NCBI RefSeq assembly: GCF_001646785.1
Contig: NZ_LRRH01000071.1
Span: 1 to 64,000 of the forward strand
Origin: Rhodococcus phenolicus
GTDB taxonomy: Bacteria; Actinomycetota; Actinomycetes; Mycobacteriales; Mycobacteriaceae
Direction: 5' to 3'
DNA length: 64,000 nucleotides
Shown: positions 35,921-53,171 of the stretch, in pieces
Position numbering within the stretch: position 1 is the first letter of the stretch
Layout of the letters: each line of letters starts with the position of its first letter
The notes under the pieces: model-generated
The model's input: only the letters and a program-made list of their open reading frames with translations
What the model was told of the DNA's origin: nothing
Databases searched by the model: none
Translations under genes and position numbers: made by a program

Positions 35921-36919
35921 GTGCAGGATCGAGAGCGGTGCGGAGTCATTCCGCACGCGATTGGGGAAGGTGTGCAGCGCCGGAACGTGGTCGGAGCCTC
36001 CGCCGAAAGCTCGGTCGACGACGAAGTCGCGCTGCCGCCGTACACGGATCTGTTGTGGCCCACCCTGCAAGCGGTCATCGCGCTCGGCGGGTCCGGCGTC
36101 ATCGAGGAGATCGACGCCGAAGTGATCGACCGTGCCGGGCTGCCCGACGCGGTGCGGACCGTGCTCCACGGCGACGGCCCCGGCACCGAGATCGAATACC
36201 GGGTCGCGTGGGCCCGGACCTATCTCAAGGGCATGGGCCTGCTGTCGAACACCCGCCGCGGCGTGTGGAGCGTGACGGACCGGGGCCGCGCGGTGCGCGA
36301 ATCCGAGATCAAGCCCATGCAGGTCGCGTACACCGCGGAGAAGCGCCGCAAGCGGCTGGTCCGCAATGCGTCGTCGGGCGCTCAGGTCGTGCCGCTCGTG
36401 GCGGCACCCGAGGATCCCGAACTCTGGCGCGAACCGGTCCTGGCCGCGGTCGCGGAGCTGCCCGCCGACGGCTTCGCCCGGATGGTCAGCTCGGTGTTGC
36501 GCGCCGCCGGGTTCACGACCCTGACGATCCCCGCGCCCGGTTCCGTGCCGGACACCGAACCCGACGACGCGGACGCCGCGGTCGAGGGCACGGGCGTGCT
36601 GAGGATCTCGCTGCTCAGCTTCTCGGTGTTCTTCCGTTTCGTACGCGGACCCGAGCGGGCCGGCGCCGACGTCGTCCGTGAGTTCCGTGCCGCCATGGTC
36701 GGTCGCGGCGACAAGGGCCTGCTCGTCTCCACCGGCTCGTTCACCGACGACGCCCGCGCCGAGGCGCACCGCCACGGCGCGCCCCCGATCGACCTGATCG
36801 ACGGCGACGGTCTGTGCGACCTGCTCAAGGAACACGGTCTCGGGGTGCGCACCACGGTGCGGACGGTCGAGGACGTCGCGCTGATTCCGGCGTACTTCGC
36901 CGATCTCTCGGGCCGCTAG
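35921..36919 (+). CDS. Mrr-like protein with degenerate nuclease core
   Basis: Protein of 332 residues. An Mrr N-terminal winged helix is clear (LPPYTDLLWPTLQAVIALGG, then RGVWSVTDRGRAV). The C-terminal region keeps the Mrr scaffold (FARMVSSVLRAAGF, GLLVSTGSFTDDARAEAHRH, IDLIDGDGLCDLL) but the catalytic core does not: the usual GGxD and Q-x-K strands are replaced by ADAAVEGTGVLRIS and FSVFFRFVRG. So it is probably not an active restriction nuclease. No methylase or partner is nearby. The start is GTG 35921 with a -10-like TAGGGT nine bases upstream; GTG 35972 is an alternative. It may act as a DNA-binding or modified-DNA sensor; that is inference. Confidence 0.75.
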   Translation: MQDRERCGVIPHAIGEGVQRRNVVGASAESSVDDEVALPPYTDLLWPTLQAVIALGGSGVIEEIDAEVIDRAGLPDAVRTVLHGDGPGTEIEYRVAWARTYLKGMGLLSNTRRGVWSVTDRGRAVRESEIKPMQVAYTAEKRRKRLVRNASSGAQVVPLVAAPEDPELWREPVLAAVAELPADGFARMVSSVLRAAGFTTLTIPAPGSVPDTEPDDADAAVEGTGVLRISLLSFSVFFRFVRGPERAGADVVREFRAAMVGRGDKGLLVSTGSFTDDARAEAHRHGAPPIDLIDGDGLCDLLKEHGLGVRTTVRTVEDVALIPAYFADLSGR

Positions 36920-37029
36920 GCGGGCAGGTACCCGAGGTCCCGGGTTTCGCGTGTTGCCCCTGTGACGGCTGGGGATGTGGTCCAATACCGGATGGTGCTC
37001 ACCGACCGAACCGGCCGAATCGAGGTGTG

Positions 37030-37758
37030 ATGAGTCTTTCTCGTCGGGAACTGTTGCGGTATGCGGCGATCGGCTCGGGAGCGGTGTGGCTGTCCGTCGT
37101 CGCGGCCCCCGGTGTCGCGCAGGGCAGGGAGGTCCTGGGCACGATCGTCGACTATTCGGCGGATGTGCCGTCGCCGCAGTCGATCCGCGCGGCCGGGCAC
37201 ATCGGTGCGATCCGCTATGTGTCGGATCGCCGTCCGGGTGCCGAGTGGATGCTCGCCAAGCCGCTGACCGAGTCGGAGGCCACGGACCTGACCGACAGCG
37301 GGCTCGAGGTGGTCTCCTGCTACCAGTTCGGCAAGGCCGAGACCGCGGACTGGCGTGGCGGTTTCGACGCCGGGGTGAAGCACGCGACCCGCGGTCTGGA
37401 ACTGCACCGCGCGGCGGGCGGCCCCGACGACCGCCCGATCTACGCGTCGATCGACGACAATCCGTCGCCGCTGGACTTCGCGACGATGATCGCGCCGTAC
37501 CTGCTCGGATGGCAGTCGGTGATCGGCCGGGAGAACACCGGCGTGTACGCGAACTCGCCGACCATCGACCTCGCCGCCGCGGCGCAGCTGGGCTCGTTCT
37601 ACTGGCAGCACGATTGGGGCACCCCGAAGGGCTATGTGCATCCGCTGGCGAATCTGCACCAGCTGCCCGGGCAGAAGGATGCGATCGACGGGATCGGCAT
37701 CGACGTCAATCACGTGCTCACCGCCGACTACGGGCAGTGGTCTCTCTCGGCCGTGTAG
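37030..37758 (+). CDS. Tat-exported DUF1906 glycoside hydrolase-like protein, Rv2525c-like
   Basis: Protein of 242 residues with a twin-arginine signal: SRRELLRYAAIGSG followed by hydrophobic AVWLSVVAAPGVAQG. The mature part is a DUF1906/GH25-like TIM barrel (GTIVDYSADVPSPQSIRAAG, IGAIRYVSDRRPG, YASIDDNPSPLDFATMIAPY, FYWQHDWGTPKGYVHPLANL, IDVNHVLTADYGQW). Length and layout match mycobacterial Rv2525c, a Tat substrate linked to cell-wall processes and beta-lactam response. The ATG at 37030 follows a GTG codon directly; either could start. It lies 110 bp after the Mrr-like gene. Confidence 0.9.
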   Translation: MSLSRRELLRYAAIGSGAVWLSVVAAPGVAQGREVLGTIVDYSADVPSPQSIRAAGHIGAIRYVSDRRPGAEWMLAKPLTESEATDLTDSGLEVVSCYQFGKAETADWRGGFDAGVKHATRGLELHRAAGGPDDRPIYASIDDNPSPLDFATMIAPYLLGWQSVIGRENTGVYANSPTIDLAAAAQLGSFYWQHDWGTPKGYVHPLANLHQLPGQKDAIDGIGIDVNHVLTADYGQWSLSAV

Positions 37759-37770
37759 ACGCCCCGGTCC

Positions 37771-38136
37771 TCAGCTCTGGCAGTGTTGCGCCGGATCACT
37801 CTCCGTGGCGGTGACCACGAGCGCGGGATGTTCGGATTCCGGGGCGCTGTGGTTGCCCCGCCACGACAGCAGCGACCACCGGGACAGCCCGGACAAGGCG
37901 GACCCGAGACTGCCGAACGACCACGACGACAGGGCCGATCCTGCGGAGCCGATCGAGCCGACGGACAGGATCGAGCCGACGCTGCCGATCGACAGGATCG
38001 AGTAGGCGGATCCGATGGACAGGATCGAGCCCTCCGAGCGGATCGACAGGATCGACCGGCGTGAGCCGATCGAGCGGATCGAACGGGTCCGGTCGGTGCT
38101 GCAGCGATGTCGTGCACCGCAAGTGGTGTGGGCCAT
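37771..38136 (-). CDS. Ser-x-x tripeptide repeat protein
   Basis: Protein of 121 residues dominated by 25 consecutive tripeptides ending in Ser (Ser at 19, 22 and so on to 91), such as S-I-L, S-I-G, S-V-G, S-A-G. Such strict periodicity predicts a regular beta-solenoid with a flat Ser ladder, comparable to ice-binding or DNA-mimic solenoids, although that is inference. Flanks are short: MAHTTCGARHRC before and WRGNHSAPESEHPAL...CQS after; three Cys lie outside the repeat (residues 6, 12, 119). GGAG just before the ATG supports the start; GTG at 38151 is an alternative. It lies downstream of the terminator of the exported-protein gene, so has its own promoter. I recall similar uncharacterised actinobacterial sequences. 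Confidence 0.65.
   Translation of the reverse strand: MAHTTCGARHRCSTDRTRSIRSIGSRRSILSIRSEGSILSIGSAYSILSIGSVGSILSVGSIGSAGSALSSWSFGSLGSALSGLSRWSLLSWRGNHSAPESEHPALVVTATESDPAQHCQS
37864..38088 (-). repeat. 225-bp Ser-x-x coding repeat
   Basis: Twenty-five 9-bp units coding S-x-x, with higher-order 18- and 27-bp periodicity (for example TCGATCCTGTCGATCGG recurring). The DNA is more repetitive than the protein alone needs, suggesting growth by local duplication. Confidence 0.75.
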
Positions 38137-38186
38137 GCTCCGGTCTACCACGTCGTGGCGGCCGATCGAAAGGGCCCGGAAACGAC

Positions 38187-38218
38187 GGGACCGCCGGGGC
38201 GTGTGCCCCGGCGGTCCC
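38187..38218 (-). terminator. hairpin terminator of the exported-protein gene
   Basis: A 14-bp perfect stem GGGACCGCCGGGGC with its complement around GTGT lies 21 bp after the stop of the minus-strand gene that ends at 38239. Confidence 0.75.
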
Positions 38219-38238
38219 GATCGAAGAAGGGTTTCGTG

Positions 38239-39102
38239 TCAGCGCACCGTGACCAGTCCGATGGTCGGCAGGAAGGTGCACGAGCGCGGCTCGGCGTCCG
38301 GCTTCTGGGTGGTGATACCGCCCGAGATCACGGCGACGACGTTGCCGGATCCCGTGTCGGCGATCGCGCTGAGCGTGGCCGGGCCGTCCGGATTGATCTT
38401 CGCCTCACCGGTGAGCGGCTGCGAGCCGGTCCGGCCGTTGGAGACGTTGAGCCAGCTCACGGTGAGCGGGCTCTCCTGCGTCGGGGCGAGCGGTGCAGTG
38501 CCCAGGGCCGTGAACACGAACCCGGTCTGGCCGGCGGCCGGTCCCGGAGGAGGCAGGTGCGACGGCCCGCCCACGGCGAGCGCGGTGCCGACCGAGTCGG
38601 CGCCGTCGCCCACGCAGTCCTGGCCGAGGGTCGGGTACAGGAACTGCGAGATGACCACGGTGTTCGGATCCGGGATTTCAGGGCCGCCCCCGCCACTGCC
38701 GTCCAGGAACGTGATGACCCGATTGAGCGTCGCCTTGACCGAGTCGGGGAGCTGCGAGTTCGCGAGCAGCTCCTTGGCCTGCGCGAGAAGGTCGTTCTTA
38801 CCGTCGTCAGCGACGTCGGAGGGTCCCGCAGCGGCGCCGACGATCGCGGGGGCGAGGGACGCGAGGGCCTCGATCTCGTCGGGATTCGCGACCTGGTTGG
38901 CGAGAAGGTTCGTCAGCGTCTCGATGGACAGGTCCGCAGGCACCACGACGCCAGGCAGACCGTTCGCGATCTGGGCCAGATCGGGAATGGCCGGGGCCGG
39001 TGGAAGCGGTTGCGCGACCGCGTGCGTCGGCACGATCAGTCCCGCGGTGGCGGCGAGTGCGCACGTGATGAGCGCCCGTCGCATTCCTCGAGTACGAAGC
39101 AC
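38239..39102 (-). CDS. exported Ala/Pro-rich protein (Rv1157c/Rv1158c-like)
   Basis: Protein of 287 residues with a signal peptide (RRALITCALAATAGLIVPTHAVAQ, cleavage after AVA). The mature N-terminal half is Ala/Pro/Leu-rich; the C-terminal half contains paired Cys (YPTLGQDCVGDGADSVGTAL and EPRSCTFLPTIGLVTVR) and FVFTALGTAPL. It lies immediately upstream of and divergent from pimE, as the Rv1157c/Rv1158c genes do in M. tuberculosis (recalled). No enzymatic motif. GGGGA is well spaced from the GTG at 39102; a promoter lies at 39174-39202. Confidence 0.8.
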   Translation of the reverse strand: MLRTRGMRRALITCALAATAGLIVPTHAVAQPLPPAPAIPDLAQIANGLPGVVVPADLSIETLTNLLANQVANPDEIEALASLAPAIVGAAAGPSDVADDGKNDLLAQAKELLANSQLPDSVKATLNRVITFLDGSGGGGPEIPDPNTVVISQFLYPTLGQDCVGDGADSVGTALAVGGPSHLPPPGPAAGQTGFVFTALGTAPLAPTQESPLTVSWLNVSNGRTGSQPLTGEAKINPDGPATLSAIADTGSGNVVAVISGGITTQKPDAEPRSCTFLPTIGLVTVR

Positions 39103-39473
39103 TGTTCCCCATCCTTGTCGTTGACGCCCCCGACGGCCCTGCGGGCCACCGCGAGCTGACGGCTCGAGGAGACACTCTATGTAGGCCCCCCGTTCGGTAC
39201 AAGCCATAGCGCTTGATTTACGCCGGCGGCATGACCTGCGGGAAGTGTAGTCACAGTGTCTTCCGAATGGTGGTATCCGGTAGACCGTAACCCCTTGCAT
39301 GCGTTACAGCTGGTGTTGGAGATAAAACTGTTACTCCTGGGACCAGCGTTTTCGGAGCGTCCGTGCCGAGCCGATAGTCTGTATCCCCGGTCCTCGGGTG
39401 AGCCGGGGCCCCTCGGATGCTCCGGGCCCTCCCGGATGTGCCCGGGCCGACGACGACGGGAGGCTGCGCCGCA
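39103..39473. other. 371-bp intergenic region between exported protein and pimE
   Basis: Non-coding, divergent. It contains the minus-strand promoter at 39174-39202 and, at roughly 39290-39345, an unusually AT-rich patch (GGAGATAAAACTGTTACTCC) that may hold the pimE promoter. No convincing RNA or additional gene was seen. Confidence 0.5.
39174..39202 (-). promoter_or_regulatory. promoter of the exported-protein gene
   Basis: Minus-strand TTGTAC (39202-39197), 17-base spacer, TAGAGT (39179-39174). Transcription would begin near 39167, giving a leader of about 65 bases. Confidence 0.5.
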
Positions 39474-52146: not shown

Positions 52147-52226
52147 TGGCCGACAGAACTCCGGGCCGATAGAACGCCGGGCCGATAGAACGCCGGGCTG
52201 ACAGAACGCCGGGCTGATAGAACGCT
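52147..52226 (+). repeat. five tandem 16-bp repeats upstream of the LysR gene
   Basis: Five units of 16 bp (consensus GGGCCGATAGAACGCC) run from 52147 to three bases before the LysR ATG. Units 2 and 3 are identical; others differ at one to four positions. Each contains TAGAAC, resembling a -10 box. The unit length is not a multiple of three, so this is regulatory rather than coding DNA. Confidence 0.8.
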
Positions 52227-52229
52227 GCC

Positions 52230-53171
52230 ATGGACACTCACCGGCTCAGGTACTTCCTGAGCATCGCCGAGCACGGATCGATGTCGCGGGCGGCGAACGT
52301 GCTCGGAATCGCGCAGCCGGCTCTGAGTCGTCAGGTACGCCGGCTCGAGGACGACCTCGGTGTCACGTTGTTCGTCCGGACCTCCCGCGGAATGGAGCTG
52401 ACCGAGGACGGCGAACGACTGCGCGCGAGCACCGCCACACCGCTGCGCCAACTGGAACTCGCCCTGCAATACGCGGGGTCCCCGTTGGCGCGCATCGAGA
52501 GAGGACTGCGGATCGGCCTGACGGAGACGGCCGCCGGCATTCTCGCGGCTCCGCTGCTCGGTGGTCTGGCCGCGGCGTTTCCCCGGGTGAACTTCTCCGT
52601 CACGGTCGCGAACACGGGACGACTCGTCGACGAGTTGATCCAGGAGACCCTGGACACCGCGATCATCCATTCGGTCCCCGACGACCGCTTGTTCTACAGC
52701 GATCTGCTGGTCGAGGAGCTCGTCGTCGTCGGGGGGCCCGCATCGGTGCTCGACCCCGCGTGTCCGATCGAGTTCTCCGAACTTTCCGAACTGCCGCTCG
52801 TCCTCCCGGCCTCCTCGACCGGGATCGGCAGTGCTCTGGTGAACACCGCGCTGCGCCGGAACGTCACGCTCACTTCCCGGTTCGTGACCGATTCGGTGCA
52901 GGCGACGAAGGATTTCGTCGAGGCGGGACTGGCCTATTGCGTCCTGCCCGTGTCCGCGTGCGGAGTCGAGCTCGAGGCGGGCCGGCTGCGCTACGCGCCG
53001 CTTCGTGACCCGGCGCCGACGCAGCGCCTCGGTATGGCGGCCACCGGCAGGCACAAGCTTCCCAGGGGGTTCTCGATCAAGGTCGGACTGATCATCAGGG
53101 ACGAGATCGCCCGACTGGTCGGGTCCGGCCGGTGGCCCGCTCGGATCCTGCCCCCGGCTCCCCGGCCGTGA
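52230..53171 (+). CDS. LysR family transcriptional regulator
   Basis: Protein of 313 residues. The N-terminal winged helix-turn-helix is RYFLSIAEHGSMSRAANVLG with IAQPALSRQVRRLEDDLGVT; the rest is the type 2 periplasmic-binding-like effector domain (LRIGLTETAAGILAAPLLGG, GLAYCVLPVSACGVELEAGR). It is divergent from the DHA2 exporter, the usual regulator-target pairing. The ATG at 52230 stands immediately after the 16-bp tandem repeats. It probably responds to an aromatic or drug-like ligand exported by the pump; that is inference. Confidence 0.92.
   Translation: MDTHRLRYFLSIAEHGSMSRAANVLGIAQPALSRQVRRLEDDLGVTLFVRTSRGMELTEDGERLRASTATPLRQLELALQYAGSPLARIERGLRIGLTETAAGILAAPLLGGLAAAFPRVNFSVTVANTGRLVDELIQETLDTAIIHSVPDDRLFYSDLLVEELVVVGGPASVLDPACPIEFSELSELPLVLPASSTGIGSALVNTALRRNVTLTSRFVTDSVQATKDFVEAGLAYCVLPVSACGVELEAGRLRYAPLRDPAPTQRLGMAATGRHKLPRGFSIKVGLIIRDEIARLVGSGRWPARILPPAPRP

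Follow-up and report, generated by a model that had tools for sequence, protein, structure and literature searches.

A conserved Rhodococcus gene for a strict serine-ladder protein belongs to an unnamed actinobacterial family

The stretch of Rhodococcus phenolicus DNA that was analysed as a whole (64,000 nucleotides, the window) carries on its minus strand a short open reading frame for a protein with serine at every third residue over most of its length. It lies downstream of a gene of the Rv1157c family and converges with a gene for an Rv2525c-like protein with a glycoside-hydrolase-like domain (Table 1). In the Rv2525c-like protein, SRRELLRY precedes a hydrophobic stretch, which we take to be a likely Tat signal, and translation probably begins at a site within the listed ORF. 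The RNA fold of 38150-38240 on the minus strand (minimum free energy -50.9 kcal/mol, z -4.6) contains the GC hairpin that separates the Rv1157c-family gene from the ladder gene. It is a probable terminator of the former; it has no T-run and was not listed by the terminator scan. The Streptomyces RNA Scr6925 of Rfam gave a full-length, sub-threshold match to 38096-38221 of the plus strand (E 0.19; 23.4 bits, gathering score 50). This match covers the hairpin and runs antisense to the beginning of the ladder gene; the GC hairpin is its probable cause. Elsewhere in the window, at 52148-52225, about five 16-bp tandem copies (GGCCGATAGAACGCCG) separate a divergent transporter-like ORF from the start of a LysR-type regulator (52230-53171, plus strand; PF00126/PF03466); they form a candidate operator array.

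Table 1. Features at and around the serine-ladder gene, in window coordinates
Feature	Position	Strand	Basis
Ser-x-x ladder protein gene, 121 aa, ATG 38136 to stop 37771	37771..38136	-	ORF, conserved family, ladder under purifying selection
Strict ladder, residues 19-91, 25 Ser at period three	37864..38082	-	25/25 against a shuffle maximum of 8
Conserved core of the ladder, residues 28-91, predicted nine-residue units S-[IV]-L-S-[IV]-G-S-x-G	37864..38055	-	Alignments, period 9, anchored lengths
C-terminal tail, residues 92-121, conserved E112, H118, Q120	37774..37863	-	85 aligned proteins
GTGGTAGACC, -10-like element, predicted leaderless promoter	38142..38151	-	5 nt upstream of the ATG; pattern in 94/96 loci
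Rv1157c family protein, upstream neighbour	38239..39300	-	NCBIfam NF050168, 187 bits, cut-off 70
Rv2525c-like glycoside-hydrolase-like domain protein, convergent neighbour	36814..37758	+	PF08924, 148.8 bits, cut-off 27.2
15-bp GC hairpin separating the ladder gene from the Rv1157c-family gene	38186..38219	-	RNA fold

Inspection of the ORF confirmed what an earlier note on this DNA had claimed, namely serine at each third position of the ladder without exception. When this protein was shuffled 20,000 times, the longest Ser triplet run averaged 3.2. The DNA periods of 18 and 27 bp reported there were recovered by Tandem Repeats Finder, which gave 18, 27 and 54 bp within 37946-38082. The ORF is also open from a GTG at 38151; the start assumed earlier, the ATG at 38136, is favoured because of a conserved upstream DNA element and its spacing of 5, 6 or 7 nt. 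The N-terminal part is rich in Arg and Ser (RSIRSIGSRRS), and the Arg-rich, non-hydrophobic character of residues 1-27 agrees, on composition only, with the earlier statement that a signal peptide is lacking. Between E35 and R86 the protein is uncharged, and the nine-residue units of the core become looser toward the C-terminal Trp cap (SRWSLLSW).

The ladder ORF is a real gene and a member of an actinobacterial protein family for which no name was found. Relatives occurred in 16 of the 18 genomes of the genus, its own included. In one of the two genomes with no match (G012) the ladder gene is missing at an intact locus, where an MFS-transporter ORF (PF07690) stands in its place, and the gene is therefore dispensable there; in the other (G016) the contig stops just past the upstream neighbour. 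A short GTGCTAGACAC and, further on, ATGGCGCACTAA in the former genome (L265, G012:C33) are a possible remnant of the start of a ladder gene. A scan of the species-genome collection returned 151 relatives, and the 80 that were kept belong to Rhodococcus, Prescottella, Nocardia, Aldersonia and Antrihabitans, the nearest being that of R. zopfii with 86% identity, which suggests that the window comes from a Rhodococcus close to this species. Profile matches at a limit of 1e-3 were obtained in the family (132 of 401 genomes; 121 matches with E < 1e-20 and 11 weak) and in the order (51 of 298), and at a limit of 1e-5 in the class (93 of 394) and in the phylum (23 of 296), the order, class and phylum samples including some nearer genomes. 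The similarity to sequences of other actinomycetes that the earlier note stated thus holds from genus to phylum. Across order, class and phylum the relatives were weaker, yet in register, and the better distant members retained the register, the Trp/Arg-flanked ends and the unit S-[VI]-L-S-I-G-S-x-G. Four loci (L184, L189, L191 and L201) consist of plain S-V-G repeats and probably do not belong to the family.

Uninterrupted Ser runs of 14 to 28 were present in all 96 loci examined of the Nocardiaceae group (hereafter the main group), a set in which some loci of the same genome were fetched twice. The earlier note had named a lack of the repeat in homologues as grounds for refutation; no such case occurred in these 96, which were, however, selected by ladder similarity, so that the presence of the ladder in them is no independent test. 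Two weak matches in the own genome (L002, L003) have no ladder. All 80 named Rhodococcus/Nocardia-group loci had the Rv1157c-family gene upstream. The Rv2525c-like gene followed downstream in 77 of these, the short loci L029, L031 and L085 included, and gave no match in L042, L065 and L086. Of 60 distant loci, four (L258-L261) belong to the own family as divergent members, and only L258 and L261 had these neighbours. The neighbours are missing from distant loci outside the own family; a functional link by neighbourhood was therefore rejected, and the shared gene order looks like common inheritance more than a sign of function. Antisense readings of the ladder itself aside, a crude gene finder detected no other recurrent cluster in more than 7 of 63 sequences. 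The neighbours provided no evidence for a role of the ladder protein.

The ladder, of about 18-28 Ser-x-x triplets, is held in exact register by selection at the protein level. Codon columns were aligned for 88 of 94 starts, six same-genome duplicates having been left out, which gave 85 distinct proteins. For the ladder columns the median pN/pS was 0.22 over the 3507 of 3570 pairs, not independent of one another, with pS between 0.2 and 0.7, which indicates purifying selection. In the comparison with eight relatives the ratio was 0.09-0.33 in the ladder and 0.36-0.76 in the remainder of the protein. Serine codons of the TCN and AGY types were mixed at positions where Ser was retained, for instance in columns 22, 43, 61 and 70, and two ladder positions were AGY nearly throughout (84 and 85 of 85); both observations speak against recent slippage of the DNA.

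The start of the gene is marked by a second conserved feature. In 94 of the 96 loci, duplicates included, the pattern GTGnTAnn[CT]C precedes the start codon by 5-7 nt, and in 64 it reads exactly GTGGTAGACC; of the two misses, L042 is one base off and L070 has a visible element that was not counted. Since spacings of 5, 6 and 7 nt shift the frame, this is conservation of DNA and not of coding sequence. Leaderless genes of actinobacteria are recognised by a conserved -10-like element some 6 nt ahead of the start codon, and the position of the element found here suggests a leaderless mRNA, transcribed from the ATG. The textbook -10 hexamer ends in T. That of the ladder gene ends in C, which counts against a leaderless promoter, and a sigma-70 consensus scan gave no promoter at the ladder gene. 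For 55 of the 60 distant loci, the sequence ahead of an in-frame ATG was compared with seven control distances. The strict form TANNNT stood at 5-7 nt in 9 loci and at every control distance in 0 of 55; the form [CT]ANNNT, which was picked after inspection of these loci, stood at 5-7 nt in 33 and at the control distances in 0-3 of 55. The exact element with ATG had two copies in the own genome, at the ladder gene and at an AMP-binding ORF, and none in the backward control. The second copy lies 6 nt before the in-frame ATG of this acyl-CoA-synthetase-like ORF (PF00501; L099 1501-1519, own genome C3:66529). No promoter regulon is claimed, as the relaxed pattern returned the same two sites against four in the backward control.

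To describe what is retained in the ladder, replacements and composition were counted in 78 distinct ladders from the 96 main-group loci and in 59 of the 60 loci outside. Only 31 of 2489 interior ladder positions were not Ser: Cys occurred 17 times, Ala 7, Gly 5, Leu and Pro once each, and Thr never. Many of the Cys replacements share one place and common descent and represent fewer events than cells. The limits of each ladder were set by Ser content, so that frayed ends fall outside the counts, and the columns before residue 28 vary (Pro in 6 of 85 at column 19, for example). Within the core, Pro made up 2 of 7467 residues, even though TCG to CCG is a single transition. The ladder therefore seems to select a small residue in a regular, hydrogen-bonded backbone and not a hydroxyl group at a surface.

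Beyond period 3, the self-similarity of the profile was highest at 9 (0.685) and 18 (0.607), with 0.50-0.52 at 6, 12, 15 and 21 and 0.46 at 27. Lengths between the caps could be anchored for 77 of 78 main-group ladders and 22 of 59 outside, and the statement on length rests on the main group. There, 17 triplets were counted in 53, 14 in 11 and nominally 20 in 11; one ladder had 16 and another 19. The class of 20 is, in its printed examples, really 17 with an anchor off by one unit. Outside the main group, 20 triplets read as a real extra unit in L208, L214 and L215. Ladder length thus mostly changes in steps of nine residues. The 14-triplet class (the Nocardia loci L067, L068, L069 and L075 and seven more) has one nine-residue core unit fewer than the 17-triplet class, and several of its ladders have additional Arg-rich Ser triplets at the N-terminal side, as if total length were compensated.

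The flanks are distinct from the ladder. Trp was concentrated near the ladder ends: the five final triplets held 143 of 149 in the main group, and the five triplets at either end held 111 of 140 in the others. Of the 85 aligned proteins, 85 retained E112, 82 H118 and 85 Q120. The tail of the main group is acidic, with a mean net charge of -3.9 over 78 distinct members, compared with +0.7 for the ladder core. A hydrophobic helix after the ladder (KD19 >= 1.6) was seen in 17 of the 59 outside the main group and in none of the 78 inside it; these helices are mostly followed by Arg, and several further members lie just under 1.6.

The ladder protein probably packs tightly into a compact structural unit and probably neither binds ice nor acts at the cell surface. 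Our preferred reading combines a leaderless mRNA, a solenoid of nine-residue units with small residues facing inward and a function as an intracellular scaffold or assembly module; as a whole, and on sequence evidence, we give it a probability of about 0.4. The ladder would fold as a compact hydrogen-bonded solenoid in which each unit comprises a strand S-phi-L-S-phi and a turn G-S-x-G. The ladder Ser (or Cys, Ala, Gly) would point inward, where their small size would allow tight stacking and where they would satisfy backbone hydrogen bonds, while Ile, Val and Leu would form the rest of the stack and Arg/Trp triplets would cap both ends. Replacement by small residues only, the near absence of Pro and the nine-residue unit argue for a regular, tightly packed fold, likely a short beta-solenoid. 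Inside the cell the protein would act as a small scaffold or assembly module; in some lineages it may sit by the membrane through the C-terminal hydrophobic helix directly after the ladder, which is proposed because of the 17 outside ladders that have one. The acidic tail of the main group, ending in H-x-Q-[ST], probably binds a putative partner.

Of the interpretation in the earlier note, a conserved repeat protein that is probably intracellular and structural stands, whereas its exposed flat face of serines is not favoured, the evidence pointing to buried serines selected for smallness. Ice-binding, DNA-mimic and adhesin roles had been proposed for such a face. A DNA mimic would be expected to be acidic, and this role was rejected on the charge of the core. 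A role as adhesin was rejected as well, no export signal or surface anchor supporting it. Thr is typical of ice-binding faces. The Thr (TxT) ladder of ice-binding solenoids was not found here, Thr occupying 0 of 2489 interior positions, hence 0 of the 31 replacements, and 71 of 4978 x positions. Ice binding is disfavoured less firmly than the others, since the S-x-L triplets recall a second proposed ice motif, SxL[T/I], in the part of PMC9247515 used here.

Several observations count against the solenoid. The amino acid sequence on its own does not distinguish a beta-solenoid from a pair of membrane helices or from another backbone with a period of three residues. The mean beta propensity exceeds that for helix only slightly (1.02 versus 0.93), and the similarity at period 27 is low. 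The main-group ladders of 16 and 19 triplets disfavour a rigid nine-residue unit, and the 37 of 59 outside ladders that could not be anchored count against the argument from length. Among solved structures no related chain was found; the best E was 0.06 and the printed matches were low-complexity stretches.

The alternative that survives best, although we regard it as unlikely, is an integral membrane protein in which residues 36-85 form a tightly packed two-helix hairpin with Arg/Trp at both membrane borders. A small residue at each third place would serve close helix packing, which fits the replacement by small residues only, and the uncharged segment and the Trp near the ladder ends suit it too. 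The hydropathy maximum (KD, window 19) was 1.55 for the window protein and 1.42-1.91 across 19 aligned members, around the usual limit of 1.6. On a membrane-insertion scale, however, the best 19-residue window costs +3.6 for the window protein, with a range of +1.6 to +4.4 among the members, an alpha helix is not expected to hold a strict three-residue register over 64 residues, and the separate C-terminal hydrophobic helix of the 17 outside members would be redundant.

More doubtful than the hairpin is a bolder extension of the solenoid reading, in which the small-residue register of period three would define a new, actinobacteria-wide type of solenoid with a nine-residue half-coil and several internal serine rows. 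Made from a conserved leaderless mRNA, such solenoids would join by their ends and assemble at the cytoplasmic membrane as filaments or patches, a small element like a cytoskeleton.

A disordered Ser/Arg-rich regulatory protein, such as a multi-site kinase target or an RNA-binding SR-like tail, is improbable. The Arg/Ser-rich N-terminal part and the Ser-rich low complexity, shared with the weak printed matches to solved chains, would suit it, but the hydrophobic x positions are strongly conserved, Pro is nearly absent and Thr never substitutes for Ser in the ladder, though kinases accept Thr. A ladder for phosphorylation or glycosylation was rejected for the same lack of Thr. Very improbable is a peptide precursor modified on its repeats in the manner of the His-Xaa-Ser (Hxs) radical-SAM system. 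The two share a period of three residues that includes Ser, and all 19 aligned members resemble NCBIfam HxsA4 (NF038313) below threshold, with a best E of 2.2e-4. Set against this, the window protein scores 15.6 bits with a cut-off of 55, His occurs at 27 of 4978 x positions in place of a His ladder, the own genome lacks HxsB (the top score was 37.5 bits for a cut-off of 370, and all 14 control genomes gave similar signals), and no maturase was found among the window ORFs scanned; this system was rejected. The weakest alternative, a DNA repeat with no gene that is open in one frame by chance, could point to the 18/27/54-bp tandem repeat and to several overlapping open frames, but it was rejected on the pN/pS of the ladder frame, the mixing of Ser codons and the relatives in distant families, with the conserved start element and synteny also against it, and we give it almost no weight.

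The preferred solenoid has precedents among known repeat proteins. Published models of the ice-nucleation solenoids PbINP and INpro, and the antifreeze protein TmAFP cited with them, have inward Ser rows at turns (parts of PMC9247515 and PMC3196904 used here), a precedent for small inward serines in tight Gly turns; by analogy and not by membership, small inward Ser rows beside Gly turns in a short-coil solenoid are proposed for the ladder protein. Its S-x-L triplets recall the SxL[T/I] strand of INpro, which, according to the same passages, differs in its 16-residue repeats, each with two rows of internal Ser and a face of Thr-x-Thr, whereas the ladder protein has Ser at each third residue, a nine-residue unit, no Thr ladder and no apparent signal peptide. 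Searches of open-licence full texts for sequence strings and the ladder phrase returned one unrelated physics paper and papers on prions and ice nucleation, none of which dealt with the family, a result that is weak evidence of absence, and the parts of PMC9062424 and PMC4255298 used here contain nothing on it.

Other families share single traits with the ladder. The RTX beta-roll is built of nine-residue repeats with the motif GGxGxDxUx. The ladder has a unit of the same length, two of which would give one 18-residue coil, but it is without this motif and has Asp at 13 of 4978 x positions, hence no calcium sites. Snow-flea antifreeze and collagen-type proteins are Gly-X-X repeats; they share the exact three-residue period with a small residue, whereas the ladder has Ser for Gly, beta-branched x residues and essentially no Pro. 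For the window protein and 19 members, Pfam models of RTX, hexapeptide (LbH), pentapeptide, collagen and known solenoid repeats gave no match at E 10, and for 48 aligned members the repeat models gave none at E 1, HMMER filters dropping most weak matches. In NCBIfam, what recurred was the resemblance to HxsA4 below threshold. The best E with PHROGs was 2.7, PADLOC returned none, 0 of 41 viral stretches from virus contigs were confirmed, and plasmids and phages gave no match, a result weakened by the low-complexity filter.

In summary, a standalone, regular protein outside the Pfam and NCBIfam families, whose register is kept in distant actinobacteria, probably has a structural function. Its conserved start element would offer a clean model for leaderless mRNAs. 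According to the part of PMC11795689 used here, AF2 over-predicts solenoids for repeats; a solenoid predicted by it would call for caution, and the ladder protein would be a hard natural test case for predictors with this tendency. The strictness of the ladder, with small residues only, no Thr, almost no Pro and a nine-residue unit, yields clear predictions for its fold that can be tested.
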